Shown piece after piece: positions 8,114 to 34,138 of a stretch of 45,489 nucleotides of DNA. The notes beneath the pieces were generated by a model, which saw only the letters and a program-made list of their open reading frames with translations, was not told where the DNA came from and did no database searches. Source of the DNA: Candidatus Termititenax aidoneus (GTDB lineage Bacteria; Margulisbacteria; Termititenacia; Termititenacales; Termititenacaceae). The stretch covers positions 1-45,489 of the forward strand of contig BGZN01000008.1 in the NCBI GenBank assembly GCA_003864455.1, read 5' to 3'. Numbering within the stretch: the first letter of the stretch is position 1; each line of letters starts with the position of its first letter. A program made the position numbers and the translations under genes.

Positions 8114-8944
8114 ATGGGCGTAAGAAGAATAAAACCGATTTGCAATGCCAGCAGAAATACTATTCTGTATGATTTTGCGGAGATCACGACGGACAAGCCG
8201 GAAAAAAGCCTGCTGACCGTTGCTCGCAAAACTTCCGGCCGCAACAATCAGGGCAAAATCACCTGCCGGCACAAAGGCGGCGGTCATAAAAACTTTTTCC
8301 GCAAAATTGATTTCAAGCGCGAAAAAGACCAGATTCCGGCCAAAGTTGTTTCTATAGAATATGATCCCAACCGTACCGCGCGTATCGCGCTTTTGAGTTA
8401 TGCCGACGGCGAAAAAAGATATATCCTGGCGCCGCGCGGCTTAAAAGTAAATGACACTGTGCAGTCCGGCGCGGACGCCGATATTCACCCTGGCAACGCT
8501 TTGCCGCTGGGTGCGATACCGGTAGGCACTGTCGTCCACAATGTGGAGTTGACCGCCGGCAAAGGCGCGCAGTTGGCGCGTTCGGCTGGAGTTTCAATCC
8601 AGCTGATGGCCAAAGAAGGCGATTACGCCGTGCTGCGTCTGCCGTCTTCCGAGCTGCGTTTGGTGCGCCAGGAATGCCGCGCGACTATCGGTGTGGTGTC
8701 CAATGAAGATCATTTCAATATCAAACTGGGCAAGGCCGGCCGTGCGCGCTGGAAAGGCCTGCGTCCGGAAGTCCGCGGTTCGGTGATGAATCCGGTGGAT
8801 CATCCGCACGGCGGCGGTGAAGGCCGCGCTCCGGTCGGCCACCCGGGACCGATGACCCCGTGGGGCAAACCGGCTCTGGGTAAAAAGACCCGCAAGCTGA
8901 AAAAACTTTCGACGAAATTGATTATTCGCCGGAAAAATAAATAA
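8114..8944 (+). CDS. rplB: 50S ribosomal protein L2
   Basis: [18 protein letters not shown]...[22 protein letters not shown]. Confidence 0.98.
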
Positions 8945-8953
8945 GGAGAAGAA

Positions 8954-9244
8954 ATGTCTAGATCGTCAAAAAAAGGCCCGTTTTGCGACGAACCTCTGCT
9001 GAAAAAAGTGCAGAAAATGAACGAAGCCGGCGAGAAAAAATTAATCAAAACTTGGTCGCGCCGCTCGGCGATTTTTCCGGATTTTGTCGGGCATACAATT
9101 GCGGTGCACAACGGCAACAAGCATATCCCGATTTATATTACAGAAAATATGGTCGGGCACAAGCTGGGCGAGTTTGCGCACACGCGCACTTTTAGAGCGC
9201 ACGGCGGCACGCAAAAGAAAGAAGAGGGAGCGCGTAATGGCTGA
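8954..9244 (+). CDS. rpsS: 30S ribosomal protein S19
   Basis: [19 protein letters not shown]...[30 protein letters not shown]. Confidence 0.97.
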
Positions 9245-9584
9245 GAAGTTGGTCAAAGCTGAAGCCAAAATGGTGCGCATTTCGCCGCGCAAAGCAGACC
9301 GGATTTTGAAATTGATCCGCGGCAAAAATGCTGCAGCCGGTTTGACGATGCTGCAGTTTTTGCCGCACTCGGCTGCGCGCTATATTGAAAAAGTTTTGAA
9401 ATCGGCGATTGCCAACGCGGAGCATAATAACAAACTGGCCAAAGACAATTTGGTGATCGCGCAGGCGGTGGCCAATAGCGGCACGCTGCTCAAACGCTGG
9501 CGCGCCGGCGGCAAAGGCCGTGCGCAGCGCATAAAAAAATATACGTCGCATATCAGGATAGCCGTGCAGGAAGGGAGCAGATAA
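9237..9584 (+). CDS. rplV: 50S ribosomal protein L22
   Basis: L22 core [20 protein letters not shown]; start at 9237 preferred over the track ORF start at 9084, which lies inside rpsS in another frame. Confidence 0.95.
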
Positions 9585-10285
9585 TGGGACACAAATCTGA
9601 TCCGCGGTCGTTGAGGCTGGGCATCAATAAAGAATGGGATCGTGTTTGGTACGCGTCCAAAAAAGATTTTTCCAGATGTTTTTTGGAAGACCAAAAAATC
9701 GAGGATTTTGTCCTGGCCAAATTGAGCAAGGCCAGCGTTTCGCGCGTGCTGATCAAGCGCAAAGTCAATCAAATCACGGTGGACATTTTTGCGGCGCGTC
9801 CGGGCATGATCATCGGCAAGGGCGGCGCGGATGCGGAGATTTTCAAGCAGCGTCTGCAAAAACTGACCGGCAAAAATGTGCAGCTCAATATCAACGAGTC
9901 GCCCAATGTGAACACTTGCGCGATTTTGCTGGCCGAAAATGTGGCGTCGCAGTTGGAGCGCCGCATTGCTTTTCGCCGCGCGATGAAGCAAATCATCACC
10001 AAAGCGCTGAAATCCGGCGCGCAAGGCATCAAAGTGATGGTGTCCGGACGCTTGGGCGGCGCGGAAATCGCGCGCACGGAGTGGTACAGAGAAGGCCGCG
10101 TGCCGCTGCACACTTTCCGCGCGGACGTGGACTATGCCGTGACTGAAGCGCAGACCACTTACGGCAAGATCGGCGTAAAAGTCTGGGTGTACAAAGGCGA
10201 TATTTTGGATAAAAAAGACGTAAAACTGGATTTGAAACCCTCGGCTGTGGAGATAGAGGAGGAAAAAGAAAATGTTAATGCCTAA
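9584..10285 (+). CDS. rpsC: 30S ribosomal protein S3
   Basis: [24 protein letters not shown]...GMIIGKGGADAE...SGRLGGAEIARTEW. Confidence 0.97.
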   Translation: MGHKSDPRSLRLGINKEWDRVWYASKKDFSRCFLEDQKIEDFVLAKLSKASVSRVLIKRKVNQITVDIFAARPGMIIGKGGADAEIFKQRLQKLTGKNVQLNINESPNVNTCAILLAENVASQLERRIAFRRAMKQIITKALKSGAQGIKVMVSGRLGGAEIARTEWYREGRVPLHTFRADVDYAVTEAQTTYGKIGVKVWVYKGDILDKKDVKLDLKPSAVEIEEEKENVNA

Positions 10286-18928: not shown

Positions 18929-19738
18929 ATGGATAATATATTATCTATTAAGGAATCCCTGGTGGAGCGCGTCAAACAACGCCGCAAGGAACGGAATTTG
19001 TCCCAGCAGACATTGGCGGATCGTTCACTAGTAAGTTTCGGTTCGGTTAAGCGTTTTGAAAGAAGCGGGGAAATTTCTCTAAGCGCGCTTTTGCGCATCG
19101 CCCTGTTGCTGGGTTGTGAAAATGATTTTACCGGTTTGTTCCAGGAAAATTTTGCGTTAAGCGATGCTCCACAATCATCTCCTCCGCCCGCTGCCGATTT
19201 GGTATTCAAGCGGTTTTCCGTTTTTCAAGATGAAAAAGTCCGTAAAATTTGGCACGATAATGAATGGTGGTTTTGCCTTTCGGATATTGTAGAAACGCTG
19301 ATCAACTCCAAACGACAAAAACATTATTTGCTGGACATACGCCGCCGCGATCACAGTCTGGCGCGGCTTTGGCCGGACTTGACCAAATTGCTGCCGCTGG
19401 ACACGCCGCGCGGCAAGCATGAATTGCTCTGCATCAACACGCTGGGTTTTTTCCGTCTAGTGCAGTCGATGCCCAATAAGCAGGTGGAGTCCTGGCGGCT
19501 CTGGCTGGCGGAGACGGCCTATGAGCGGCTGTGTTTTATCGAAGACCCGCTGCGGGCGGTGCAATTGGCCAAAGACCTTTACAAGGCCAAAGGTTACTCC
19601 GACAGATGGATCGCGCAGAAGCTCAGCGGCGCTATGCTGCGCGAAGAATTAACCGCTTCGGAAAAAGAAAAAGCGGATAAAGACTATCTGCTTTTCATGG
19701 CCGAGTTGAGCAAAAATATTCAACCGATCTGGCAGTAA
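18929..19738 (+). CDS. XRE-type HTH fused to BRO-N-like domain
   Basis: HTH VKQRRKERNLSQQTLADRSLVSFGSVKRFERSGEISLSALLRIA; BRO-like KIWHDNEWWFCLSDIVETL... Confidence 0.75.
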   Translation: MDNILSIKESLVERVKQRRKERNLSQQTLADRSLVSFGSVKRFERSGEISLSALLRIALLLGCENDFTGLFQENFALSDAPQSSPPPAADLVFKRFSVFQDEKVRKIWHDNEWWFCLSDIVETLINSKRQKHYLLDIRRRDHSLARLWPDLTKLLPLDTPRGKHELLCINTLGFFRLVQSMPNKQVESWRLWLAETAYERLCFIEDPLRAVQLAKDLYKAKGYSDRWIAQKLSGAMLREELTASEKEKADKDYLLFMAELSKNIQPIWQ

Positions 19739-19868: not shown

Positions 19869-20531
19869 ATGGCTGAATATACAGGCATAGGAAGAGGACA
19901 AAGTCTTAAAGCTAGCCATATGGAAGCCGCGTTGGATTCTAAGGTCAGCAAAGAGGACGATGAAACTATCTTCGGGCTAAAGACTTTTACCACTTCGCCA
20001 ATAGTGACAACTGGAAACCCGACAGCGACCGCTAATACAGCGATCGCCACGGAAGCGTATCTTTATAACGCATTTAAGGATAAGATTAATAAATACAATG
20101 TGCTTTATAAGACTGGCAACCAGGATAATATTAGCGGAAAGAAAACTTTCGAAAAAGAAGTCTTACTGGGAACGCCGGGTAAAAATACAGCAGTCGGTAA
20201 CAACGAGGCTAATAAAAATGCCGTAGCCACAGAAGCGCAAGTATTTAAAGAAGTATCTGAAAAAACGACTCCAATAATGGTTGAAATTGAGGAGAGCATG
20301 GAGGAGCTTAATCGTGCTCTTAACTTCAAGGCCGATGCCGACGATGTAGTTTATCGGATTGGCAACTTGGAATATCCGAATGGTATTCCCCAAGGTATTA
20401 ACGGAGTCAAGACTTTTGCCATCACGCCGAAAATCTCGGAATCTAAAACAATGCCAAGCGATAATACCGGAGACAAAATAGCGGCTACCGAAGCGCAAGC
20501 TTACAAAGCGGCTCTCTGGCAGCCAACATAA
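19869..20531 (+). CDS. Tail-fibre-like repeat protein A
   Basis: Three degenerate G-KTF...(A/V)(A)TEAxxY repeats; paralog of the next ORF; ends YKAALWQPT. Confidence 0.75.
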   Translation: MAEYTGIGRGQSLKASHMEAALDSKVSKEDDETIFGLKTFTTSPIVTTGNPTATANTAIATEAYLYNAFKDKINKYNVLYKTGNQDNISGKKTFEKEVLLGTPGKNTAVGNNEANKNAVATEAQVFKEVSEKTTPIMVEIEESMEELNRALNFKADADDVVYRIGNLEYPNGIPQGINGVKTFAITPKISESKTMPSDNTGDKIAATEAQAYKAALWQPT

Positions 20532-20550
20532 TTTTAAGGGAGGGGTAAAT

Positions 20551-21186
20551 ATGGCGGAAAAATACAGTGGAATAGTAAAAAATAATAATATTAACGCGCA
20601 GGACGTAATAGACGCACTGGATAGCAAAGTTGACGTAACTGGAAACGTAACTATAAATGGGGTAAAAACTTTCGCTATAGCGCCGGTAGTGCCGTCCAAA
20701 AATACACCGCTAACCAGCGCTGGCAGCACTACGGCGATCGCCACCGAAGGGCAGGTTAATGCAACGGCCGCGCTTCAGGCTGATGCTAGTACTGTGGTTA
20801 CTCTGGACGGCGAGGAACCAATATCTGGACAAAAAACTTTTCTCACCCCGCCAGTAGTGCCGTCCAAAGATAATGTGATTGGTTTTGCTACTGGCACGAC
20901 TGTCATAGCCACGGAAGCTCAGGTGTATAACACGGTTGCTGACGCGGTTGAGGATATGGAGACTAAGCTTTCTGGAAAGGTTTCTTTATTGAGTGAAGGG
21001 ATTTCTGGTAAAGCTGATTCTAGTAATGTGGTCGATCGGTCCACCGCTCAAATAATCAACGGGGTAAAAACTTTTGCAAGTTCTCCAGAGATACCGGCTA
21101 ACGCCGCCATGCCAGTTGCTACGGGCGCTACGGCTAATAATATAGCTACAGAGGCGCAAGTTTATAAGGCCAGCCTCTGGCAGTAG
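20551..21186 (+). CDS. Tail-fibre-like repeat protein B
   Basis: Repeats INGVKTFAIAPVVPSK...AIATEGQV / ISGQKTFLTPPVVPSK...VIATEAQV / INGVKTFASSPEIPAN...NIATEAQV; ends YKASLWQ. Confidence 0.75.
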   Translation: MAEKYSGIVKNNNINAQDVIDALDSKVDVTGNVTINGVKTFAIAPVVPSKNTPLTSAGSTTAIATEGQVNATAALQADASTVVTLDGEEPISGQKTFLTPPVVPSKDNVIGFATGTTVIATEAQVYNTVADAVEDMETKLSGKVSLLSEGISGKADSSNVVDRSTAQIINGVKTFASSPEIPANAAMPVATGATANNIATEAQVYKASLWQ

Positions 21187-21197
21187 GGGAAAATACT

Positions 21198-22337
21198 ATG
21201 ACGGATCGTGGTCGCGTAAAAGAAAGATTGCTGCCTGCGGCATATCGGCTGAATACTTATGAGGTTTTTATGACTTGGGATTGTAATTTGCGCTGCGTTT
21301 ATTGTTATGAATGTGTGGCGGGCAAAGACACAGCCGAGCGGCGTGAAGAAAAAAAAGGCGCGATGACTTCAGAAAAGATCACTGAGGTGGTTAATTTTAT
21401 TGCAGAGACTCACGATAAAAATGCCAAGGAACTGCGAATTATTTTCTGGGGTGGGGAACCCTTTTTGGCGTTTGAACAGATCAAGGAAATGATCGCCAAG
21501 ATCGAGCAGGCGCAGGCCGACGGCCGGATCGAAAAAGAGGTCTCTTATACCACCACCTCAAATTTAACAGTGCTTACTTTAGAACAAATGCAATATTTGC
21601 AGACCAAACGTTTTTCTATATTGGTTTCGTTTGATGGGTTGGAAAAGACCACGGATCAAAATCGCGGCAAGGGCACCTTTGCCAAGGTGATCAAAAATAT
21701 GGCCTTGCTGCATGGTTTGAGGATTCCATTCTCAATAAGGATGACAGTTTCTCTGGAGCAAATCGACAGTCTTGGTAGGAATTTAGAATTTGTTAATGAT
21801 CTGGGGCATAAATTTTGGTGGAGTCTAGACAGCACCAAGAAAACTCTCGCGCAAGATGATATAGAAAAGATTTTAAATATTCTTTTATGGTTTCATCAAA
21901 GCTATCCAAATAACTTTGCGGAAACATTAAGCCGTCATCTGCGCAAAAGAGACAAGAATTTTTGCATAGATCCTTACAGGCAAATAACTATTGATCCTGC
22001 CGGCGATCTGCGGGTTTGTTCCAGGGTGGACTATGTTATTGGCAATATACGTGAAGGTGTGACCAAATATTCAGAAATCAGAGACTGGCCGTTTTATTCT
22101 GGCAAGCCGCTTAAAATATGCGCCGATTGTTTGGTTTATGATAAATGCAAAGGTGGTTGTCTTGGAGAGCATTTTGAAAAAAACAAGAATTTGAGCGCGG
22201 ATTATAAATTGAACACTGCGCAATGCCAAGAAATATTGATGATGCATTTGCTGAATGAAAATTTAATTTTAAAACAGCAATACGCTTCATTAAAAAAAGA
22301 GGAGGAAAAAGAACTATGCCATATTCCAACCATTTAG
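21198..22337 (+). CDS. Radical SAM/SPASM protein (enzyme 1)
   Basis: CNLRCVYC (CX3CX2C), FWGGEP; C-terminal Cys cluster CSRVDY...CADCLVYDKCKGGC...C. Confidence 0.92.
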   Translation: MTDRGRVKERLLPAAYRLNTYEVFMTWDCNLRCVYCYECVAGKDTAERREEKKGAMTSEKITEVVNFIAETHDKNAKELRIIFWGGEPFLAFEQIKEMIAKIEQAQADGRIEKEVSYTTTSNLTVLTLEQMQYLQTKRFSILVSFDGLEKTTDQNRGKGTFAKVIKNMALLHGLRIPFSIRMTVSLEQIDSLGRNLEFVNDLGHKFWWSLDSTKKTLAQDDIEKILNILLWFHQSYPNNFAETLSRHLRKRDKNFCIDPYRQITIDPAGDLRVCSRVDYVIGNIREGVTKYSEIRDWPFYSGKPLKICADCLVYDKCKGGCLGEHFEKNKNLSADYKLNTAQCQEILMMHLLNENLILKQQYASLKKEEEKELCHIPTI

Positions 22338-23104
22338 ATCATAATTCCTGTGAAAATTGTACGAATACATGCGACAATAATGATCGATGTGATAATGTAG
22401 ATTATTGCAAGGTTTGTGAAGAAGCCAGTCATCACGATTACTATTGTTATGGCGACTCTTGTTTTCAGTGCAGTCATTATTATTCATGCAATCAAACTGA
22501 GGAGTATACAGATACATATAGCTATGCTGATAACTATAGTTACAACAATCACGCGAACTATTCTATTGCTTATCCGCCCAGTTTCGAATTGGAGGGTATA
22601 TCAAAGACTTCCACGAATGCTTGGACAAATTTATCTTCGGCCATCCCGGATATAAAAAAGCTGCGCGACGAGATCAAGCGTATTACTACTAAATATGGCA
22701 CACAAAAAGGTATTGCCGCTAATGGGAGCTTGACCAGCGGCAAAGGACCGATACAATGGGAAACGGCTACTACTGAAAATGCCGAAACAGAATTCGGATA
22801 CGGCAAAATGGCCAGGGCGGCGCAAATAAATGAAACAATCAATAATGTGGAGACACTATGGCAGGCTATAAAAGGCGGAAGCAGCGGATTACCGTCCTTA
22901 AAAAATAAAGGTGATCCAAGGAGCAAAGCGGATTACAAGACTATTATTGAAAAAGCTAGCGAGTTGGCGAAAATAGACCAAACGCCAGCCACTGGGTATC
23001 TAAACCATCTGAATGAAAATAAATATCCTAATTATCATAGCAGCACAAAAAACAATATACCGGCGAGCGATACTAAACCCAATAGACCAACCTGGAAGAA
23101 ATAA
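22316..23104 (+). CDS. Cys/Tyr-rich putative modification substrate
   Basis: 10 Cys in residues 12-58, then a Tyr-rich segment YTDTYSYADNYSYNNHANYSIAY; Shine-Dalgarno gaggagg; overlaps the end of enzyme 1. Confidence 0.7.
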   Translation: MPYSNHLDHNSCENCTNTCDNNDRCDNVDYCKVCEEASHHDYYCYGDSCFQCSHYYSCNQTEEYTDTYSYADNYSYNNHANYSIAYPPSFELEGISKTSTNAWTNLSSAIPDIKKLRDEIKRITTKYGTQKGIAANGSLTSGKGPIQWETATTENAETEFGYGKMARAAQINETINNVETLWQAIKGGSSGLPSLKNKGDPRSKADYKTIIEKASELAKIDQTPATGYLNHLNENKYPNYHSSTKNNIPASDTKPNRPTWKK

Positions 23105-23127: not shown

Positions 23128-23385
23128 GTGTCTACGCCGTGGAATGATTTGCAGTCCTGCACTCTATGTGGCAAGCCATTAAGAGATATTTTGGTGTTGA
23201 CTAAAGTGTCTATGGATCTACATAGCCGCTATTACCGAGAGGATGGTGTTTTTGAAAACATGAATGGTTTAAAGAAAGCAACTTCTGAATATTTGTGCGA
23301 AGAATGTTTCAAGGTTTTTGTGGATAAGCTGGAAGCCTTTTCAACAGAACGGACTGTTTTGAAAAATAAAAACGGTGACATTTGA
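23128..23385 (+). CDS. Small protein with two CxxC motifs (zinc-ribbon-like)
   Basis: SCTLCGKPL ... LCEECFKVF; 85 aa. Confidence 0.65.
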   Translation: MSTPWNDLQSCTLCGKPLRDILVLTKVSMDLHSRYYREDGVFENMNGLKKATSEYLCEECFKVFVDKLEAFSTERTVLKNKNGDI

Positions 23386-23388
23386 GTT

Positions 23389-24696
23389 ATGTTTGAAAAT
23401 GTGCAGGAGATAATTCTTAAAGTAACCCGTGATTGTAATTTGCGTTGTTCTTACTGTTACGTGCGGGATAAGGATCGTTTTAGAGGAGAACGCATGACGT
23501 TTGCCGTTTTCCAGAAGATAATTGAGCGTTATTTACAGGATCAAGCGCGGAATATCGGAGCAGCGGTCAAACAGCTTTTATTAGTGTTCCACGGCGGTGA
23601 ACCAACTTTACTGGGCGCTAAAGAACTGCGGCGTTTTATGAATTATGCCAGAAGTAAAATTCCTTATATCCGGTTTGGCATACAGACTAATCTTACGAAT
23701 ATTTCGCCGGAATTGGCGGCGCTCTTTAAAAAATACAGTATTGTGCCGGGCATCAGTGTGGATGGCTGGCATTCACGTTCCAATAGCTTGCGGATGAACG
23801 GTAAGAAAAGTCCGGTTTTAGAAAATGTAAGAAAACTAAAAAAATATCATATTGACTGCGGGCCATTATTGGTAGTCAATAAAGCCAATATTAAGAAAAC
23901 TTGGACTAATATTATTAAACTGATCAGAAATTTTGCCATACCAGGGATCAAAGCCAACTATGTGGAAAATATTTATTCTCCGGATTTTGTATATCCGGAA
24001 TGCAGGGCTGAAGAGTTATTCAAAGAATTATTCCTTCCGACAATAAAGCATTTGCAAAAAAAACAACAATTGGTGGAAAGAAATGCAGAAGGAGTTCTTT
24101 CTAATTTTTTTAATGCGCTTATTTTTCAAAACGAAAACTCTCCAGAGCGGGACTGCCATAAAGATAATTGTCAAATAAAATTTTGTACTGGAGGCAATAA
24201 GCTGGCCGAAGTTGACGCTGAGGGAGTGGTTCTTTCCTGCGGCCGTTGGGATGATGTGCATGAACTTTGCCGGATCGGTTCTGTCGAGGCTCTGGACTTC
24301 TGGGGAATTAGCTCTTACAGCAAAGTGCTGGCCTTGCAATGCCGAAAGGCTGCGGCTGTGCGGCAGAAACATTGTGATAGCTGTCCGGCCGGTGAAATTT
24401 GCAGTTACGGCTGCCTGGCTTTTAGTTACGCAAAATATGGCGATATTCGTATCCGAGCGGACTCGGTCTGCGCTTATTACAAGCAAGTTTGGCAATATTT
24501 GCTGGCTAATGCCTCAGTTGTTTTAAAAAGTTATGCCGCAGTCCGGAATTGGGAAATTGCTGAGCGGCGGAGCAGAAATTTTCAAGTGTTTTTTCCAAAA
24601 AATGCGCCAAGATTAAATGAGGAGAGTATTAACAAAGTCTCGGGGTGGTCTATCGGTCAAGCAGGCGCCAAAACTTGCTTGCAAGTGCGGTATTGA
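23389..24696 (+). CDS. Radical SAM/SPASM protein (enzyme 2)
   Basis: TRDCNLRCSYCYVRD; FHGGEPTL; SPASM-like CTGGNKLAEVDAEGVVLSCGRWDD...CDSCPAGEICSYGCLAF. Confidence 0.92.
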   Translation: MFENVQEIILKVTRDCNLRCSYCYVRDKDRFRGERMTFAVFQKIIERYLQDQARNIGAAVKQLLLVFHGGEPTLLGAKELRRFMNYARSKIPYIRFGIQTNLTNISPELAALFKKYSIVPGISVDGWHSRSNSLRMNGKKSPVLENVRKLKKYHIDCGPLLVVNKANIKKTWTNIIKLIRNFAIPGIKANYVENIYSPDFVYPECRAEELFKELFLPTIKHLQKKQQLVERNAEGVLSNFFNALIFQNENSPERDCHKDNCQIKFCTGGNKLAEVDAEGVVLSCGRWDDVHELCRIGSVEALDFWGISSYSKVLALQCRKAAAVRQKHCDSCPAGEICSYGCLAFSYAKYGDIRIRADSVCAYYKQVWQYLLANASVVLKSYAAVRNWEIAERRSRNFQVFFPKNAPRLNEESINKVSGWSIGQAGAKTCLQVRY

Positions 24697-24697
24697 T

Positions 24698-26077
24698 ATG
24701 CTGGAAAATCTGCAGCACCTTATCTTAACTGTTACCCGCGATTGTAATTTAAATTGTCAATATTGTTTTGAGCAGGACAAACAGTTGTATGCGCAAGAGA
24801 AAATGTCTTTAGCCGTGTTTAAGCGGTTTATGGAAAAACTACTGATCGACCGCAAAAAATATCGACAGACAAATCCTGTGGAAATTTGTTTTCATGGCGG
24901 AGAGCCGACCTTGGGCGGAATTCCGCTTTTGCAAACATTTATCGATGAAGCTCAGCAGCAGTTGGGCGCGGATAAAGTTATTTGGGCAATGCAAACCAAC
25001 GGCACGCTTTTGAATGAAGAATGGCAGCATTTTGCGAAAAAAAATAAGGTTAAAATCAGTGTTAGTTTAGACGGATATAATTACGGCCAAAATCGGCTGC
25101 GTTTTAAGAAAAATGCGTTTAAAAATTATTTTCGGCGCATGCTGGCGGTTAAACCTGTGGGTGCGCTGGCTTTATTGACTAAAAATAATTTGTCAAATAT
25201 GGTGTTTCATATTTGGTTTATGTATTTTAAGTTTAAGATCGGCGTGCGCGTTAATCCGGCGGAATTTGTTGATGGTCCGGCAGTTAATCCTCAAGAAATT
25301 AGCGGCCAGCAATTGGCCCGGAAATTTTATTTGCCTTTGTTGCGTTGGAGCGCTTTATTCCCTTGTCTGGCTGAGCACCTGCTGCGGGGTTTTTTACAAA
25401 GTTTTTTCTTGGAAACTATATATACAAAAATGACGCAGAATAATGAGACCGACTTGGCCTGCCGCTTGTGCAGCGCAAAATTTTGTTCGGCGGGGAATGG
25501 TATTATTAACTTATTGCCAAATGGCGCTTTGTGGGCTTGTCAGCGTTCTCAAGGCTTGGAAGATTATCGAATGGGATCTGTTTTTGAAAGTGCCATTGAT
25601 CCTTTTGGCCTAAAACATTTTAATAAATTATATGCTTTAGCGCTGCCTCAAGCGCGGACCATACGCGAGCTTAGATGTGATGTTTGTTTTGCTGCGGATA
25701 TCTGTAATTATGGCTGCAAGGCCTTTGGTTTATTAAAAACGCAGGGGCGGGCTACTATTCGGAAGGAGTTGGTCTGTGAAGCGGCACAAATTGTTCGTGA
25801 ATATTTTAGCAGAAATATTTATGATATGCTGTTTGTTTACGCGCGGCTTTCTGATTTCTCGATCAGAGCAGCTAGATCCCGGGTCAAAATATATTTGCCG
25901 CAGAAACTCAACTATGATGCGGTCCGTTATGAATTAAAAAATATAAATGACCATAATATTTCCATAGCTCAAGACAAGGAAGACAATGTTTATATTGCTT
26001 TCTCCAGGAAAAATTTAAGCTTAGGGAATAGATTGATCTTGAGCGCGCAAAATTTTATCCAGAAAGGAAAAAAATGA
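24698..26077 (+). CDS. Radical SAM/SPASM protein (enzyme 3), paralog of enzyme 2
   Basis: TRDCNLNCQYCFEQD; FHGGEPTL; CRLCSAKFCSAGNGI...CDVCFAADICNYGCKAFG. ATG at 24698, just after the enzyme 2 stop. Confidence 0.92.
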   Translation: MLENLQHLILTVTRDCNLNCQYCFEQDKQLYAQEKMSLAVFKRFMEKLLIDRKKYRQTNPVEICFHGGEPTLGGIPLLQTFIDEAQQQLGADKVIWAMQTNGTLLNEEWQHFAKKNKVKISVSLDGYNYGQNRLRFKKNAFKNYFRRMLAVKPVGALALLTKNNLSNMVFHIWFMYFKFKIGVRVNPAEFVDGPAVNPQEISGQQLARKFYLPLLRWSALFPCLAEHLLRGFLQSFFLETIYTKMTQNNETDLACRLCSAKFCSAGNGIINLLPNGALWACQRSQGLEDYRMGSVFESAIDPFGLKHFNKLYALALPQARTIRELRCDVCFAADICNYGCKAFGLLKTQGRATIRKELVCEAAQIVREYFSRNIYDMLFVYARLSDFSIRAARSRVKIYLPQKLNYDAVRYELKNINDHNISIAQDKEDNVYIAFSRKNLSLGNRLILSAQNFIQKGKK

Positions 26078-27081
26078 ACATAATTTTGACAACCAGATGC
26101 AATAAAAATTGTTCTTTTTGTTTTGCCAATAAAGTCATGCGGGAAAAGCCCGCGGAAGATATGACGCTGGCTAATTTTAGCGGGCTAGTAGAGTTGGCTT
26201 GTCGAGACAATCCTAGGCCGCAGGGTTTGAAGCTGCTGGGCGGCGAGCCGACCATGCATCCACAGTTTGTAGAAATATTAGACTTTTTAACGGCTAGGCA
26301 GATTCAGGTGTCGCTGATTTCTAATTTGCTGTACGAGGATGAAAAAGTGCGCATGCGGATTTATCAGGCAGCGCGAGACGGCGTGATTGTGGGCGGGTTG
26401 GCTAATGCGGCTGAATTGGGTTCGAGTAATAAAATGCAGATATTTAAAGATAATTTTAATGCCTTGCGGGAGGCTTTGGGTCGGCGTGATTTTCAGCGAG
26501 ATCTGGCGGCGGGGATAACGCTTTCCAGGCATAAATCAAGCGCAGAAGAGGTTGCTTATGTGGAATATTTAAGCCAAAACTTGGAAATATCTGCTTTGCG
26601 CATATCGCTGGATTTTTTAGGGGACAATGTTAGAGACACGTTTTTTATTAATAATAAAGAATATGGGCAAAAATTTTTGGCTGTTATTCATAAATGTTTG
26701 GATTTGCGCATACCAGCTTCCGGCGATTGCAAAATGTATCCCTGTATGTTTGAGCCAAAGAATTTTCGGAAAGATATTCAGGGATTTATTCAGAGGATTC
26801 GCACAGCTTGCCTTGCCGGTGCGGCGCCTTTTGATGTTCTCCCGGACATGTCTTATATTCATTGTTATCCGGCGCGCAAGTTATCCGGTCAGAATATTCT
26901 AAAGTTTTCGCATTTGTCTGAGGCGCTGGGTGAAATAACTTTCCTAAAAAAGTCCTTACAAAGTCTTGGCAGAGAAGATTTGCCGCCAGAGTGTCGAGTT
27001 TGCGATTATTATAAAACAAATAGATGCGATTCTTTGTGCTTGGGTTGTCGAGAGCTGGCGGTAGGATTTTTGGATAACTAA
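26074..27081 (+). CDS. Radical SAM protein (enzyme 4)
   Basis: MNIILTTRCNKNCSFCFANK; LLGGEPTMHPQF; C-terminal CRVCDYYKTNRCDSLCLGC. Confidence 0.9.
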   Translation: MNIILTTRCNKNCSFCFANKVMREKPAEDMTLANFSGLVELACRDNPRPQGLKLLGGEPTMHPQFVEILDFLTARQIQVSLISNLLYEDEKVRMRIYQAARDGVIVGGLANAAELGSSNKMQIFKDNFNALREALGRRDFQRDLAAGITLSRHKSSAEEVAYVEYLSQNLEISALRISLDFLGDNVRDTFFINNKEYGQKFLAVIHKCLDLRIPASGDCKMYPCMFEPKNFRKDIQGFIQRIRTACLAGAAPFDVLPDMSYIHCYPARKLSGQNILKFSHLSEALGEITFLKKSLQSLGREDLPPECRVCDYYKTNRCDSLCLGCRELAVGFLDN

Positions 27082-27083
27082 AT

Positions 27084-29294
27084 ATGGCAAAAAAGATAAA
27101 ACTGCAATTTAGCATCGCCGGCGGATTAAGTATTCATAAATCTACGCTAGCTTTTATCTTGGCCAGGGAACAACATTCAGAATGGTTTTACCCCGAAATG
27201 GAGGTAGCGTCTGTGTATGATTGTTTTCCGGGATTTATTTGGAATGGCGGCAGGATATATTCTCAATCTGTAATGTCAGCCGAGCAAATGATCCAAAGGG
27301 TCAACTTTTTTAATAATCGGAATATCGGAGTTAATTTTACTTTTACTAATTGCGCCTTAACTGCCAAGCATTTGTGCGACCCTTTAGGCAATTGGGCTTT
27401 GGAGAAGTTTGTTAAACCGATAAACGCGATCGTGATCAATAGTCCAATCCTGGAAGAATATATTCGTCAAAATTATCCCCAGTGTAAAATGATTTCGTCC
27501 GTTACAAAGGTGATCAGGGATATAGATCGCTTATTGGCAGACACGCTCAAATATGACGCAGTGGTTGTGGCTCCGGAGTTTAATCATGATTGGCAGGCCT
27601 TGAGTAAATTGCCAGTGGATAAGATAGTTATATTAGTTAATGAAGGCTGCGCGCCTTACTGTTCGGACAAACTCAAACATTATAAAATGTATTCGGAAGC
27701 TATTTTGGGGCTAGCGACAAAAGAATCCATCAAGTATTTTTGTCCAGATGGACGCAAGGGAAACAAAACCATCTTATCCAGAAAACAACTTTTAGTCTTG
27801 GCTGAAAAATTAAAGATTAAACATTTTAAACTAAATGGCCGCGATGCTACTACTCTGGAAACGCTGCTCGGATATTATAAAGAATATTTTGTGCTACCGG
27901 AATTTCAAGCCAAATTTGAACGGTTTATGCGTGAAAACAACAATTTGAAATTCTGGAATAAGCAAATAAGCGCAATTCAATGGGATAAAAACATCGTGGA
28001 TAGGCTGGCCAAGGTTTATCAAGAAGTGTTGTTCGATACGGTGAAAAAGATTTGTCAGAAAAATATTACACCGCTGGCGGTATATATTCACAGCCCATTT
28101 TGTCCCTCGCAGTGCAAGTATTGTGCCTATCGAGGCCGAGTGCCGTTAAAGGGCGAGCTGGAAAAATATTATAATGAATATCTTCCAGCGCAAATCAATA
28201 ATTATAGAGAGATTTTGCAAGCCGCGGAGGTCAGCTCTTGGTTTTTTGGCGGCGGGACACCATCTTTGATGACGCCGGAAATGCTACGCCATATTTTAAG
28301 CCTGTTGCCCGGCCTTAAAGAGCGCGGCGAAAAGATTTTTGAGATCCACCCGGCCAATTTTAATATAGAACTTTTAGATATTCTGCAGGAATATAATTTT
28401 CATAATGTGATTGTTGGTGTCCAGTCCTTTGCTGAGGAGACGTTAAGGAAAGCGAAGCGTATTCCTGCCGGCAGGGAACAGATAAAGAGCATAATTCAAG
28501 AAATTCAAAAACGGGGCATGGCGGCCTGGGTGGATTTAGTAGGCTATGTCAACGATGATCCTGGAGAAATAGCCGTCCTGGGACAGGATATTTACACTGC
28601 GCTGGAGCTGGAGCCGGACGAGATCAGCATTTGTATTAATTATTTTCTGAGGGAAAAATATTTGCAAACGACTTTAGAGTTGCTTACTGTTGTATTGCAG
28701 ACGGTTGGATTTGGCTGGCAATGGGAAGACTTTATCGCCAAACCGGCGGACATCCGAAAACATTTAGAGAATTTTAAGGTATTGAGATTATATAACAAAA
28801 GTAAGCCGCTGGTTTTAAAGCAGCGGAATTTTCTTAATGCACTGGCGACACACACGGAGCATTTTGTCAAACAATCCTTTTTAGGCATAGGCAGCTATCA
28901 AAATCAAACACATGGCACGATTTCTTGCCTGGTGACGGAGGATTATAAATATTTTTTTACAGAAGCAAATAAGGATTGGCAGCCGCGTTATTTTATTACA
29001 CACACCGCGGATTTTTTGGCGGAGGCTCAACGGCTGCTTTCAGATATGAGAGATACCGCCGCAAGTATGAAAAGAACGCTCCAGATCAAGCAGGTTTGCT
29101 TAGAACGACGATACTACAATCCGACCGGCACGCTTGGTCTGGGCGAGGATATTTCTTTTTTGTCGGCAACTTTAGAGAGAGACTTTTCCAGCAGCCTTGC
29201 GGAAAGAATAAAATGTGAGTCTCTTTTGCAGAAATACCAGCTGCCGCCGGACAAGCCGTTTATCGATTTATCAAAAATTGGGGTACCGAAATGA
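27084..29294 (+). CDS. Fusion: peptidase-U32-like N-domain + HemN-like radical SAM (enzyme 5)
   Basis: N-domain PEFNHDWQAL...VILVNEGCAPYCSDKLKHY (U32-like Cys motif); C-half VYIHSPFCPSQCKYCAYRG, FFGGGTPSLM. Confidence 0.82.
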   Translation: MAKKIKLQFSIAGGLSIHKSTLAFILAREQHSEWFYPEMEVASVYDCFPGFIWNGGRIYSQSVMSAEQMIQRVNFFNNRNIGVNFTFTNCALTAKHLCDPLGNWALEKFVKPINAIVINSPILEEYIRQNYPQCKMISSVTKVIRDIDRLLADTLKYDAVVVAPEFNHDWQALSKLPVDKIVILVNEGCAPYCSDKLKHYKMYSEAILGLATKESIKYFCPDGRKGNKTILSRKQLLVLAEKLKIKHFKLNGRDATTLETLLGYYKEYFVLPEFQAKFERFMRENNNLKFWNKQISAIQWDKNIVDRLAKVYQEVLFDTVKKICQKNITPLAVYIHSPFCPSQCKYCAYRGRVPLKGELEKYYNEYLPAQINNYREILQAAEVSSWFFGGGTPSLMTPEMLRHILSLLPGLKERGEKIFEIHPANFNIELLDILQEYNFHNVIVGVQSFAEETLRKAKRIPAGREQIKSIIQEIQKRGMAAWVDLVGYVNDDPGEIAVLGQDIYTALELEPDEISICINYFLREKYLQTTLELLTVVLQTVGFGWQWEDFIAKPADIRKHLENFKVLRLYNKSKPLVLKQRNFLNALATHTEHFVKQSFLGIGSYQNQTHGTISCLVTEDYKYFFTEANKDWQPRYFITHTADFLAEAQRLLSDMRDTAASMKRTLQIKQVCLERRYYNPTGTLGLGEDISFLSATLERDFSSSLAERIKCESLLQKYQLPPDKPFIDLSKIGVPK

Positions 29295-30409
29295 GAAAGG
29301 TAATACCCTTGTTTAAAGTTTTTATGAGTAAAGATGTGCTTAAGCCGCTTGAGCGGGTTTTGTTTAGCGGTTTTATAGGCCAGGGCAAAAAAGTTGAACA
29401 ATTTGAAAAAGTATTGAAATACAAATTAAACTCCCCGTATATTTTGACAATGAATTCCGGAACATCCTGTCTACATATTGCCTATCAAATGTTAACTGTT
29501 AAGGAAGAGACTAACGAGGCGATAGTGTCGCCGCTAACCTGCGCCGCGACCTTAACTCCTTTGTTGGCCAATAATATTCAGCCAGTCTGGGCAGATGTTG
29601 ATGGACGGACTGGCAATATTAATGTTCTGGATGTTGAAAGAAAGATCACGCCGCGAACTAAAATGATTGTTGCTGTGCATTGGGGCGGCAATCCTTGCGA
29701 GTTGTCAAAATTGGCGCAGCTCAGCAGAAAGTATCATATTCCGCTTATTCAAGATGCCGCGCATGCTCTGGGCGCTGAGTATCACGGCAAGTCTATTGCT
29801 GCTTATAGTGATTTTACGATGTTTTCCTTACAGGCTATAAAACAGGTTACTACGGGCGATGGCGGAATATTGGTTTGTAGAAGCGCTCAGTACTATAAAA
29901 GAGCCAAATTATTAAGATGGTACGGAATAGATAGAGAAAAGAATTGTAGAAACAGTGATCTGCGCTGTGCCATTGATATTAAAGAAGCCGGACATAAATT
30001 TCATATGAATGATATTAATGCCATGCTTGGTTTGGAAAACATCAAATTTTTGGATTGGCTGTTAGCGCGGCATAGAGATAATGCGGAGTATTATGATCGT
30101 AGATTTAAGGGAAAAATAGACCATGTGGTTGCAGCCAAAAATACTAAACCGACCTACTGGCTTTACACAATTTTCGTGAAGAATGCCGAAGCTCTGCGCC
30201 GCAAATTGCTGCAAAGAGGCATTCAAGTTTCTAAAGTCCATGCGCGGAACGATCAACACACGGTATTTAAGAAATATAATCGTTGTCCTTTGCCCGGGGT
30301 TGATTGGTTTGATCTGCATCATCTTTGTATCCCTTGTCATTATGCTCTGACTGAACAAGAGCGGGAGTATGTGTCGGACAGTGTTTTGGAGCTGGCAAAA
30401 TGGGGATGA
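29291..30409 (+). CDS. DegT/DnrJ/EryC1/StrS-type PLP-dependent aminotransferase
   Basis: MNSGTSCLHIAYQ; IQDAAHALGAEYHGK; FSLQAIKQVTTGDGGILV. Confidence 0.92.
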   Translation: MRKVIPLFKVFMSKDVLKPLERVLFSGFIGQGKKVEQFEKVLKYKLNSPYILTMNSGTSCLHIAYQMLTVKEETNEAIVSPLTCAATLTPLLANNIQPVWADVDGRTGNINVLDVERKITPRTKMIVAVHWGGNPCELSKLAQLSRKYHIPLIQDAAHALGAEYHGKSIAAYSDFTMFSLQAIKQVTTGDGGILVCRSAQYYKRAKLLRWYGIDREKNCRNSDLRCAIDIKEAGHKFHMNDINAMLGLENIKFLDWLLARHRDNAEYYDRRFKGKIDHVVAAKNTKPTYWLYTIFVKNAEALRRKLLQRGIQVSKVHARNDQHTVFKKYNRCPLPGVDWFDLHHLCIPCHYALTEQEREYVSDSVLELAKWG

Positions 30410-32457
30410 ATAATTTATTAAATATTAAATTAGACAAAAATCAGAGTTTTCTGGAATTAGAATTTCCAGAAAGCATGTTTTGTGAGGAAATAGTATTACA
30501 AGCTAAGAAATTGATAGAGAAGAAGTATGCTGGAGCGATTATTAGTTATGAAGTCGATCAAAATAACTATGACCGCGCGGCGATAAAAATAACAAAATCG
30601 GACAATAAGCTTGATATTAAAGCGGTTGCGATAGATTTATTTAGCACGATAAATAACTATCCGAATTATTATCCCTATAAAGATAAATCCGCGCCGGCTA
30701 ATGTAGACGCCAAGCAGCCGCTGCTTACTTGTATTATTGTTGTGGCATTTAATGAATTATTTGTTTTAAATCAAACCATTCCATCAATTTTAGCAAATAC
30801 TAAAGATATTCCTTTTGAAATAATAATTGTCGGTAATGACAGCGTCAGTAAGGCGGATTTGTTTAAGCATTTGCCGGTAAAGTATATTGACGCATCCAGC
30901 GCCCCTTTTCATGTAAGCAGAGCTTATAATTTAGGCATTAAATCAGCTCAGGGACAGTATATTGCTATATTGCATGATGACGCGGTTATTGATGATGTGC
31001 TTTGGGCAGAAAAATGCATTAAGGTTATTGATTCAGAACAATTTATTCTTTTGTCTGCAACTATTCAACAGAGAGACGTGTTAGGCAGTGTTACTGTCGG
31101 GGGCACTCCGCTCCTAATGTTTAGGGCTGCTCTTACGCAGAAGTATGGATTGTTTGATGAAAATATATATATTGGTTTTGAAGAAAATGAATACAGCGCG
31201 AGAATGTTGGCTAATAATATTTCTGTAAGGTATACGCCTTGTCGGGTTTTCCACATGAAAAGTTCAAGTACTGCTATTTTATTTAATCATGATTCTGAAT
31301 TATTTAAAATATTATTTAGCCTAAATATTATGCCAAAGAAATGGATTGGGTTATTCTGGCAATTTTTTCGTAAAAAAAACTTCTCCGAGTTGTTGGATGT
31401 TGCAGATGATCTTTATCTGGCTTATTGTGTGAGAAAATATCAGCCAAAACGTTTTCATGATTTTATGCAAATGCAAAAATATAAATCGGTTTTTTTAAAT
31501 AGAAGTCGAGAATACTTTTTGTTTGATGAATGGCCGCTTCCAAATAATTTTATTAATTCTAAGCATGAATTATTGATAATAAAAACCCTGGAACATTTAA
31601 AAAGCAGCTCCATGCAATCCATTATAGATTTTATTTTTGCGCCGCCGCGCAGATTAGAATTTGATTTTGAATTGTCCAGCAAGTGTACGGCTAGATGCGG
31701 TTTTTGCCCGCGAATTCATCTACAGAGAGATAATGACTTTATGCCAACGCAATGTGTGTGCAAGGTATTAAGTCAAATACCGGACATTATTAATGACTAT
31801 GATATTATCTCTATAGGCTTTGCCGGGTTGGGCGAGCCTCTATTAAACAAGCAAGGTTTTTTTGCGATCTTGGATTATGTAAGAACTATGCCTTATCGGG
31901 CTAAATTGAAAACAACAATAGTTACTAACAACACTTTGATTGATGCTGATTTTATTAGTAATCCATTGTTGCGCTATCTGAATTCTATGGTGATTAGCGC
32001 TGCTGGTTATAGTTATGCTGACTATGTCAGACAATATAATCAGCCTTGGCCCAGAACATTAGCCAACATTCTGGAGTTACGCAAGCGTTGGCCGCGTATG
32101 AGTATCAAGGTTGCCGCGGTAAATTATTTGGATCAAGCCGCGCCTCCATTAAAAGAAAATGAAATATTTCTTTCCTGCCAGGAGAACCAAATTTGGTATG
32201 AAAATCCTCCATTGCATGGCCGCGGCGGATATTTGTATAAGGCCAATATCGCTGAACGGCGGACTTGCCAGATTTATAGTAGATTTGTTTTTATTTCTAG
32301 TGATGGCAACTATCTTTCTTGCTGTAATGATCTAACCCAGGAAAACATTTTAGGTAAAGTAGCGGTTGCGCCTTTGTCTGGTGTTTTAGCTAAGAAAAAA
32401 TGTTTTGACTATAAAAATCCTTTCCCGCTTTGTAAAACCTGCGATATTAGTAATTAG
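30400..32457 (+). CDS. Fusion: GT2-like glycosyltransferase + radical SAM/SPASM (enzyme 6)
   Basis: LTCIIVVAFNELFVLNQTIPSILA..., ILHDDAVI; C-half FELSSKCTARCGFCPRIHL, GLGEPLL, CSxx...CCNDL...CKTC. Confidence 0.88.
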   Translation: MGMNNLLNIKLDKNQSFLELEFPESMFCEEIVLQAKKLIEKKYAGAIISYEVDQNNYDRAAIKITKSDNKLDIKAVAIDLFSTINNYPNYYPYKDKSAPANVDAKQPLLTCIIVVAFNELFVLNQTIPSILANTKDIPFEIIIVGNDSVSKADLFKHLPVKYIDASSAPFHVSRAYNLGIKSAQGQYIAILHDDAVIDDVLWAEKCIKVIDSEQFILLSATIQQRDVLGSVTVGGTPLLMFRAALTQKYGLFDENIYIGFEENEYSARMLANNISVRYTPCRVFHMKSSSTAILFNHDSELFKILFSLNIMPKKWIGLFWQFFRKKNFSELLDVADDLYLAYCVRKYQPKRFHDFMQMQKYKSVFLNRSREYFLFDEWPLPNNFINSKHELLIIKTLEHLKSSSMQSIIDFIFAPPRRLEFDFELSSKCTARCGFCPRIHLQRDNDFMPTQCVCKVLSQIPDIINDYDIISIGFAGLGEPLLNKQGFFAILDYVRTMPYRAKLKTTIVTNNTLIDADFISNPLLRYLNSMVISAAGYSYADYVRQYNQPWPRTLANILELRKRWPRMSIKVAAVNYLDQAAPPLKENEIFLSCQENQIWYENPPLHGRGGYLYKANIAERRTCQIYSRFVFISSDGNYLSCCNDLTQENILGKVAVAPLSGVLAKKKCFDYKNPFPLCKTCDISN

Positions 32458-32470
32458 ATTGGTGGTATAT

Positions 32471-34138
32471 ATGACGACTGAGCAGAAACTGAAATTTAGT
32501 TTGGGCGGCGGCTTGACTGATAACTATGTTATCCAGTTGTTTATTTTAGGGAGAGAAGAACATCCGGAATGGTTTTATCCGGGAATAGAAATCGAGTCAA
32601 TATTTGATAGTTTCCCGGGGTTAGTCTGGAATGGCGGCCGTTTGGTGGAAGGCTCATTGACTATGGATGATGCTATGGCCAGAGTGGAGTTTTTTAATAG
32701 CCGCAATATTGGAGTGAACTTCACTTTTACAAATTGTTTGTTGACAGAAGAACATATTGACGACCCATTATGCAATGCCGTGCTTCAGAATTTTGCCAAT
32801 CCTTTAAATGGCGTGGTCGTCTATGATCCGCGTTTGGAAGCGCATATCCGGACGGCTTGTCCGCAATACAAGATAATTTCTTCTGTCTCAAAATGTATCT
32901 ATGACCGGAGAGAAAGACTGATTGCAGACACGGAAAAATATGATTTGGTTGTAATTCCACCGGAATTTAATCGCGATTTAGCATTTTTGCGCCTATTCCC
33001 GCCGGAAAAAGTGGAGTTATTGGTAAATGAAGGCTGCCCGCCTTATTGTAAGGAAAGGATGCAGCACTATATTGTTACTTCTCAGATGGTCTTAGGATTA
33101 AGAGCTATAGAGGATAATCCTTATAACCCCTGTAAAAAAGTTATGCGCAAGCCGCCGGCGGGAAAGATGGTTTTAACAATTACTGAATTATTCGAAATAT
33201 TAGCGGCGACAGGCATCAGTCATATGAAGTTTAATAATCGCGGCAATCCTTCTGTCGAGCGCTCCCTTCAAGAAATAATCAAATATTTTGTGCTGCCGCG
33301 GCATAGCCTGGCCTTCAATTCTTTTATGCAGGATAAAATCCGGCAATTAAGGGGAGATAAAATTAATGCCGCAGATTATGCTGTTTTTAAAATATCAGTC
33401 ATAGTGCCGGTTTATAATACAGAAAAATATTTAGCGGCTTGTTTGGATAGTGTTCTAGCACAGACCCATCAGAATTTGGAAATTATTATTGTAGATGATA
33501 ATAGTCCAGACAATGCCCAAGAGATTTATAACAAATACGCGAGATACGATAAGAGAATAAAAATAATAAAGCATCTGCACAATAAAAAACTCTCTGCCTC
33601 CCGTAACAGCGGATTGCGACAGGCCAGCGGGGATTATGTGCATTTTTTAGACAGCGATGATTATATTATGGATGCGGATTACTACAAGATAATGCTGAAA
33701 TACGCTGTTGATTATAATGCTGAGCTTGTGCGCAGTGGTTTTTATAATGAGCGGACAACGCACCGCTTGGATGGTGTTTGGCTGCTTGGTTCTCTGCGGG
33801 ATTTATCCCGTAAATTGACTTTGGTGGAAGAAGCCCCGTATTGTTGGTGTTTTTTGTTTAAGAGAGAATTTTTGCAAAAATACAATCTTGAGTTTGATAT
33901 CTCTTTGCTGTGCGGAGGTGAAGATTTAATTTTCTCTTTTGAGGCAGCGTATTATGCTAATCAAATTGTTTTGGTACCGAATGTGAAGGTTTTTTATCGA
34001 AAAGATGGCGCTTTCCGCAAATCAAATAATGAACAAAGAATATATAGTGAAAACCTGGCTCATAGAAAAATAAGTGAATTTGCTGAGCGGCATAAATTTC
34101 AGGATTTATTCCGGCGAATATTTGAAACAAACCGGTGA
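32471..34138 (+). CDS. Fusion: peptidase-U32-like domain + GT2 glycosyltransferase
   Basis: N-domain closely resembles that of 27084-29294 (VNEGCPPYCKERMQHY); C-half ISVIVPVYNTEKYLAACLDSVLAQTHQNLEIIIVDDNSPD...FLDSDDYI. ATG at 32471 preferred over 32405. Confidence 0.85.
   Translation: MTTEQKLKFSLGGGLTDNYVIQLFILGREEHPEWFYPGIEIESIFDSFPGLVWNGGRLVEGSLTMDDAMARVEFFNSRNIGVNFTFTNCLLTEEHIDDPLCNAVLQNFANPLNGVVVYDPRLEAHIRTACPQYKIISSVSKCIYDRRERLIADTEKYDLVVIPPEFNRDLAFLRLFPPEKVELLVNEGCPPYCKERMQHYIVTSQMVLGLRAIEDNPYNPCKKVMRKPPAGKMVLTITELFEILAATGISHMKFNNRGNPSVERSLQEIIKYFVLPRHSLAFNSFMQDKIRQLRGDKINAADYAVFKISVIVPVYNTEKYLAACLDSVLAQTHQNLEIIIVDDNSPDNAQEIYNKYARYDKRIKIIKHLHNKKLSASRNSGLRQASGDYVHFLDSDDYIMDADYYKIMLKYAVDYNAELVRSGFYNERTTHRLDGVWLLGSLRDLSRKLTLVEEAPYCWCFLFKREFLQKYNLEFDISLLCGGEDLIFSFEAAYYANQIVLVPNVKVFYRKDGAFRKSNNEQRIYSENLAHRKISEFAERHKFQDLFRRIFETNR

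Follow-up and report, generated by a model that had tools for sequence, protein, structure and literature searches.

In this study we describe a gene (22316-23104) in a window of 45,489 nucleotides, the whole stretch of DNA that was analysed (contig BGZN01000008.1 of Candidatus Termititenax aidoneus). On balance we favour the view that its product is a substrate of radical SAM (rSAM) enzymes whose cores are crosslinked at many residue triplets, yielding a rigid component of a fibre or adhesin, and not a classical RiPP. We observed a [Y/H/C]-x-[N/D] lattice in the protein, a set of genes conserved together with it, synteny of this set with a phage module and, in other phages, a parallel arrangement of genes for HxD/HxN fibre-like proteins and rSAM enzymes. 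From these observations we infer the bonds themselves, the assignment of enzymes to bonds, the role of the middle domain, and the location and function of the product. The features are listed in Table 1.

Table 1. Positions of features in the window and, in the last rows, of related proteins on other contigs
Feature	Position	Strand	Basis
HTH and Bro-N regulator-like gene, tentatively a cassette regulator	18929..19738	+	Pfam HTH_3, Bro-N
Fibre-like protein f1, KTFxxSPxVP repeats, C-terminal LWQPT	19869..20531	+	BppL_N below cut-off; aligned with f1/f2 pairs
Fibre-like protein f2, BppL_N-type repeats, C-terminal LWQ	20551..21186	+	Pfam BppL_N 31.9 bits, cut-off 25.8
rSAM-A, radical SAM/SPASM enzyme, nearest model PapB	21198..22337	+	PF04055 3.8e-13; NF047865 137.4 bits, cut-off 340
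Proposed rSAM substrate, 262 aa	22316..23104	+	translation and homologue alignments
N-terminal core, residues 2-86, [Y/H/C]-x-[N/D] lattice, invariant YxNHxN at end	22319..22573	+	
Helical middle domain, residues 87-222, candidate for recognition or assembly	22574..22981	+	conservation and low-confidence model
C-terminal core, residues 223-262, invariant YxNHxN...YxN	22982..23101	+	three-homologue alignment
Small Cys4 protein (CxxC...CxxC), possible zinc-ribbon partner	23128..23385	+	four Cys shared by the window, G006 and phage proteins
rSAM-B, SPASM-type	23389..24696	+	phage orthologue 35% identical
rSAM-C, SPASM-type paralogue of B	24698..26077	+	grouped with B in tree
rSAM-D, short radical SAM enzyme	26074..27081	+	phage orthologue 33% identical; 100/100 clade
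N-terminal domain without a name plus HemN-like radical SAM	27084..29294	+	outside conserved phage/bacterial core module
Accessory sugar genes: DegT aminotransferase, glycosyltransferase-rSAM fusion, FSIAGGL...NEGCxPYC-domain/glycosyltransferase	29291..34138	+	Pfam
Class-2 substrate, G000:C24 (same genome)	L100:12838-13641	-	
Class-2 substrate, G000:C13 (same genome)	L101:12631-13410	-	
Class-2 substrate, G003:C158	L102:8861-9652	-	
Class-2 substrate, G001:C71	L112:692-2017	+	
HxD/HxN (also YxN, FxN, WxD) triplet proteins beside rSAM	L140:2273-3469, 8351-9637; L160:5955-6986; L169-L207		

The proposed substrate gene and its triplet lattice

Judging from sequence comparison, 22316-23104 is a real gene, because a homologue in the MAG Kf353_bin111 (G006) shows 46% identity across the full alignment, starts likewise (MPYSNH, MTYSNH in the window) and has the same rSAM gene coupled to it. 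The start codon, ATG at 22316, falls within the rSAM-A gene (21198-22337), with AGGAGG upstream. Translation bears out what a preliminary description had read from the letters: a start overlapping the preceding rSAM gene, by 22 nt, and ten cysteines (12, 15, 19, 25, 31, 34, 44, 49, 52 and 58) with three CxxC pairs (12/15, 31/34, 49/52), followed by a Tyr-rich stretch (YTDTYSYADNYSYNNHANYSIAY, residues 64-86). The protein had no match in Pfam, NCBIfam or PHROG. Its AlphaFold model (pLDDT 32) is usable for helix hints only, and in this low-confidence model helices are predicted at residues 100-127, 164-186 and 204-219.

The class-1 substrates found comprise three full-length proteins (window, G006 and a phage) and a partial one from the MAG Pcl387_bin129 (G007), whose contig stops within the core; the two MAGs are the nearest named relatives, Candidatus Margulisiibacteriota. 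In a substrate search of 55 relatives G006 was the one true homologue; matches in G028 and G013 look like chance and have no adjacent rSAM gene. A DNA pattern of three uninterrupted [YH]x[ND] units, run over 74 genomes of the phylum, returned only a Pro-Asn-His repeat and no relative.

The description of the protein as a probable rSAM substrate has gained support: rSAM-A adjoins both full-length homologues as well as the truncated one, and the core is variable next to a better conserved middle. An N-terminal core had been foreseen, and alignment to G006 gave the expected hypervariability, with 28% identity at residues 11-78 (many gaps) against 56% at residues 87-222. However, the conserved part is the middle of the protein and not its tail, with cores at both ends; what had been taken for a C-terminal extension holds a second conserved core at residues 223-262 (YLNHLN...YPNY). 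Nor do Cys and CxxC define the protein as had been supposed, given that the N-core of G006 has 3 Cys and no CxxC, against 10 Cys in the window core, and Tyr, His and Asn instead (YTNYTNYS...). What is conserved is the unit [Y/H/C]-x-[N/D], and Cys, Tyr and His interchange on this one lattice across the Margulisbacteria and phage homologues.

In composition-preserving shuffles of the N-cores of window and G006, lag +2 [YHC]-x-[ND] pairs numbered 26 against 13.2 expected (p<=2.5e-4). Among lags 1 to 7 this was the only one enriched. No enrichment was seen at lag +4 from Cys, Tyr or His to N/D, so that a PapB-type CX3D repeat was not found; i+3 was depleted, and [YHC]-[YHC] spacing favoured multiples of three. 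The lattice rule was derived from the window and G006 sequences, and therefore the tests that count are those on the G007 and phage homologues. The first 22 residues of the G007 homologue (MGAHLNNSACSDTVGYKNHLNY) hold 4 pairs, taking in 4 of 4 scorable Y/H/C residues (p=0.003). In the phage homologue Y/H pairs at lag +2 numbered 18 against 7.3 (p=2.5e-4); Cys was not enriched and is mostly followed there by Ser-Thr, not Asn/Asp. A repeat of 11 residues makes up the phage N-core, and with it lag +5 is raised too. In the window core x-[N/D] follows 12 of the 29 Y/H/C residues, with Cys 31-58 not fitting, and hence not every Y/H/C would be bridged. In all three diverged homologues YxNHxN is invariant twice, closing the N-core and recurring in the C-core (there as YxNHxN...YxN). 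In the three-substrate alignment 14 of 17 invariant core residues fall in triplets, compared with 30 of 125 core positions, a figure inflated by the low-complexity alignment of the N-core; the alignment of the C-core is safer because it is anchored beside a conserved ELA.

The cassette and its phage counterpart

The gene cluster spans 19.9-34.1 kb and has a GC content of mostly 0.36-0.44, compared with mostly 0.47-0.53 in the ribosomal-protein/secY/adk block that flanks it on one side; TonB-receptor/exbB-type genes flank it on the other. In G006 the same genes occupy another chromosomal place, and the cassette is therefore probably mobile. Two tandem fibre genes lie upstream of the rSAM gene in G006 as well. 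Eight Streptomyces phage proteins, of which one is annotated as a tailspike, match the window's f2; the AlphaFold model of f2 (pLDDT 47) offers nothing usable beyond helix hints. The fibre pairs (19869-21186 and homologues) have a C-terminal Trp, f1 mostly ending in or near CW and f2 in LWQ, VWQ or VWS. A Bro-N-like gene also precedes the fibre pair at C24 of the same genome (L100:15105-15644).

In rSAM-A the CxxxCxxC motif and C256, C274, C308, C311, C317 and C321 are invariant in 4 homologues including that of the phage. The Pfam SPASM match is slightly below cut-off, and a PDB relative is 5wgg, a radical SAM domain protein which we take to be CteB. PapB is the nearest model of rSAM-A, B and C, each time below cut-off; the YhhB, AmcB, GrrM, FxsB and XyeB models, where they match at all, stay far below theirs, so that the enzymes pass none of the known 3-CyFE family models. 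Relatives of rSAM-A outside the family (genome-wide, ~25% identical) have ordinary RiPP or other contexts where inspected, with no triplet substrate. The start of rSAM-C in the list of open reading frames, 24617, is probably too early; the G006 orthologue begins at residue 28.

The N-terminal domain of the 27084-29294 protein recurs in 32405-34138 and at C24. This FSIAGGL...NEGCxPYC domain is reminiscent of U32 and is fused to a HemN-like rSAM in the first case and to a glycosyltransferase in the second; in the third it stands alone (L100:7856-8731), a copy for which no significant family match was found. Glycosyltransferases follow in G006 too, but not as orthologues in order. Fusions of glycosyltransferase and radical SAM/SPASM domains occur as GT2-rSAM at 30400-32457 and as GT8-GT2-rSAM in G006 (L009:15956-18955).

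A search with the substrate alignment gave one viral relative, on a 179-kb IMG/VR contig (L145). There the module consists of rSAM-A, substrate, a 68-aa CxxC...CxxC protein, rSAM-B and rSAM-D, which are 29%, 24%, 34%, 35% and 33% identical to their window counterparts, and the whole set is co-conserved in the window, G006 and the phage. In the tree, rSAM-B/C of the window group with phage B and C (99/99) and rSAM-D forms a clade with that of the phage (100/100); for phage rSAM-A the tree gives no supported position, its best match being window rSAM-A, 29% identical. The nearest model of phage rSAM-B is DynA, below cut-off. Genes for gp25-like and gp6-like baseplate wedge proteins flank the module on one side and long-tail-fibre genes on the other. 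Virion genes thus adjoin the phage homologue, whereas the window neighbourhood has only fibre-like genes. Viral scans with the rSAM-B and rSAM-D alignments returned the same contig and one weak partial rSAM-D match (L168), and a viral scan with the three-sequence substrate alignment found nothing. The T4-like phage (L145:2670-3578; G074:C1:1.7-20 kb) carries many further rSAM and sugar-biosynthesis-like genes among its baseplate and fibre genes.

The idea of a tailocin or eCIS was dropped, as no sheath gene was found in the six same-genus genomes searched, its own included. The only Baseplate_J match lies in a separate prophage segment of the same genome (G000:C32, L165:1770-9164). This tail segment also has a fibre-like gene and, near an integrase-like gene, a reverse transcriptase like those of diversity-generating retroelements.

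We propose that the 22316-23104 protein would be modified in both terminal cores by the neighbouring rSAM enzymes, while the central domain (87-222) would probably be recognised by these enzymes or by partner proteins. The PapB-like rSAM-A and rSAM-B/C, which are related to PapB and cyclophane formers, would most likely link Y/H/C to the beta carbon of Asn/Asp at i+2. For Tyr and His these might be aryl- or imidazole-to-carbon bonds (triceptide chemistry) and for Cys sulfur-to-carbon bonds (ranthipeptide-like). Triceptide enzymes bond Trp, Phe, Tyr or His at position i to the Cbeta of residue i+2, Tyr-Asp included, and PapB/QhpD-type enzymes bond the Cys sulfur to the Cbeta of Asp, or of Asn in another ranthipeptide (PMC11002830). 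The interchange of Tyr, His and Cys on a single lattice, together with rSAM enzymes of both flavours encoded in one operon, is what a protein with mixed C-C and thioether i,i+2 crosslinks would look like. Many such short bridges may render the otherwise disordered ends rigid and protease-resistant. The product would most likely be a crosslinked fibre or adhesin component, not a secreted small peptide, because the cassette opens with two tail-fibre-like proteins and the phage set lies between wedge and long-tail-fibre genes.

Class-2 cassettes and HxD/HxN proteins of phages

The same genome holds two more cassettes (C24 and C13), and the same-genus genomes G003 and G001 have one each. These class-2 cassettes encode a different Cys-rich substrate together with two rSAM enzymes, and in C24, C13 and G003 a fibre pair comes before the substrate. 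The class-2 substrates contain 29-54 Cys, with C-terminal CxC[ND]xR repeats and CxxNxxC near the N-terminus, and Cys to N/D is favoured at +1 and +3 (CxC[ND]). As far as sequence profiles can tell, they are an analogue and not a member of class 1, because profile comparison gives no significant homology between the two. One helical motif common to class 1, class 2 and the fibre N-termini was considered and found unsupported by hhalign (E 0.035-0.75); profile comparison gave no homology between substrate and fibre proteins, and a viral scan with the class-2 substrates found nothing.

A viral scan with rSAM-A also returned contig L140, which carries an S74 tail fibre, two HxN/HxD-repeat proteins and two rSAM enzymes matching those of the Thermus phages phiLo, phiMa and Cumys. 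The last two phages, phiMa and Cumys, encode the triplet protein between the tail-collar-fibre region and the rSAM gene, and x-[D/N] follows 54 of 54 His in the Cumys protein, Cumys_13, and 43 of 43 in L140. A triplet ORF was found near the rSAM gene in 29 of 39 viral contigs of this subfamily against 0 of 77 bacterial/archaeal rSAM loci; the control loci are mostly bacterial, and other viral rSAM loci are also mostly without the motif. Several of the negative contigs begin at or just upstream of the rSAM gene at the contig end, and L183 has FxN repeats instead. Within the triplet proteins x-[N/D] comes after 92% of the His residues; for the remaining long ORFs at these loci the figure is 21%, a contrast that is somewhat inflated because the ORFs were chosen by the motif. 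Over all triplets, the first position is taken by H (796), Y (144), F (69) and W (54). For the Cumys rSAM enzyme the nearest model is AmcB, below cut-off. The rSAM enzymes of L140 and of the Thermus phages (L140:3506-6956, L160:6995-8245, L163:7995-9443) end in HGDHTD-type repeats, as if modifying or mimicking their own substrate. The HxD/HxN proteins likely represent a separate system of rSAM-modified tail fibres that includes cultured Thermus phages. The sections of the Cumys paper available noted the rSAM module and proposed DNA modification of undefined kind, and the HxD repeats are unmentioned there (PMC11437467). In the Campylobacter phages CP220 and CPt10, 11-12 rSAM proteins have been described (PMC2853527).

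Alternative explanations and known systems

With its variable cores, better conserved middle and PapB-like maturase, the cassette resembles a RiPP cluster, and several rSAM enzymes plus sugar genes could decorate a natural product. Hence the protein might be a classical RiPP in unusual order, its crosslinked cores being cleaved off the central domain and set free as small peptides that are bioactive or serve as signals. We regard this as improbable: the cluster genes scanned (Pfam/NCBIfam) gave no match to a transporter or protease family, the proteins measure 262-307 aa, two fibre-like genes belong to the cassette, the phage homologue sits among baseplate and tail-fibre genes, and the classical architecture of a short precursor with N-terminal leader and C-terminal core is not seen. 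We give just as little credence to a protein that is an rSAM substrate by other chemistry (sactionine formation, epimerisation, hydroxylation, glycosylation seeded by the sugar genes, or a Cys/Tyr-derived cofactor), with the lattice as a structural repeat. The lag specificity equals that of known i,i+2 crosslinkers, the interchange of Y, H and C suits different donors reacting with the same acceptor, and the nearest models are crosslinking enzymes. Such chemistry would, however, agree with the presence of glycosyltransferases and S/T/N-rich cores, and sequence does not reveal what an rSAM enzyme does; those described here score below all curated cut-offs.

The least probable explanation, and one to which we attach very little weight, is an unmodified Zn or Fe-S binding protein, with the rSAM enzymes acting elsewhere, for example on surface sugars. 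Three CxxC pairs in the window protein and the sugar-modifying genes nearby speak for it, but the number and spacing of Cys are not conserved (the G006 N-core lacks the pairs and the phage has mostly C-S-T), and on this ground we rejected simple metal binding. Moreover, a Tyr/Asn lattice is not the signature of a metal site. The preliminary description had counted homologues without rSAM genes as evidence against a substrate; rSAM genes lie beside every homologue found.

The crosslinked fibre or adhesin component that we prefer shares features with several known systems. In the triceptides (XncB, OscB, YxdB, HaaB, YhhB) an rSAM-SPASM enzyme is likewise encoded beside a substrate with repeated aromatic-x-X units linked i,i+2, Asn/Asp are among the acceptors, and Tyr and His are known donors (PMC11002830). 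The window, too, has an rSAM enzyme with SPASM-type Cys beside the precursor, and repeated pairs of an aromatic residue at i and an acceptor at i+2. Unlike triceptides, the protein described here is 262-307 aa long, has a core on either side of a central domain and carries Cys on the lattice; there are several rSAM genes per operon in a context of fibre genes, and the scores are below every 3-CyFE cut-off. Among the ranthipeptide systems, PapB (freyrasin) is the model to which rSAM-A, B and C come closest, and the chemistry known from this group is the formation of thioethers between Cys and the side chain of Asp/Asn; QhpD acts on a protein (quinohemoprotein amine dehydrogenase) and not on a small peptide. 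The substrate repeat of PapB is CX3D, whereas here Cys-to-acceptor spacing is +2 (+1/+3 in class 2), Tyr and His dominate in the homologues, and rSAM-A scores 137 against 340. The His-Xaa-Ser system (HxsA/B/C) also combines a triplet-repeat substrate with more than one rSAM enzyme, but its repeat is HxS and not [YHC]x[ND], and the HxsB/HxsC models match weakly, far below cut-off. BppL-type phage baseplate/fibre proteins (PF18338) have the repeat seen in both upstream genes, of which f2 passes the Pfam cut-off; the fibre genes of the window differ in forming a standalone chromosomal cassette without surrounding virion genes. In the rSAM module of the Thermus phages Cumys and phiMa an rSAM gene likewise lies by tail/baseplate genes and a fibre-like aromatic-x-D/N protein (PMC11437467), but the rSAM subfamily is another one (nearest AmcB), the lattice is dominated by His and the partner is a DUF483 protein.

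Crosslinking by rSAM enzymes is known mainly from small peptides. In the literature searched, which covers few subscription journals, we found no report of rSAM-crosslinked fibres. We see about an even chance that such crosslinking is a general maturation of tail fibres and fibre-like adhesins, a modification of virion proteins that involves dozens of triplets of the type aromatic (or Cys)-x-Asn/Asp. It would have arisen with at least two rSAM subfamilies, one in the set of the window and the T4-like phage and the other in the HxD/HxN phages, cultured Thermus phages among them, the cassette of the window being a chromosomal relative of the phage one. If this were true, rSAM crosslinking would be a protein-maturation step for rigid, stable fibres in phages and in one bacterial lineage. 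It would also give a reason for the rSAM genes found in host-recognition regions of phages, as in the Thermus rSAM module, the pelagimyophage cassettes and possibly CP220/CPt10.
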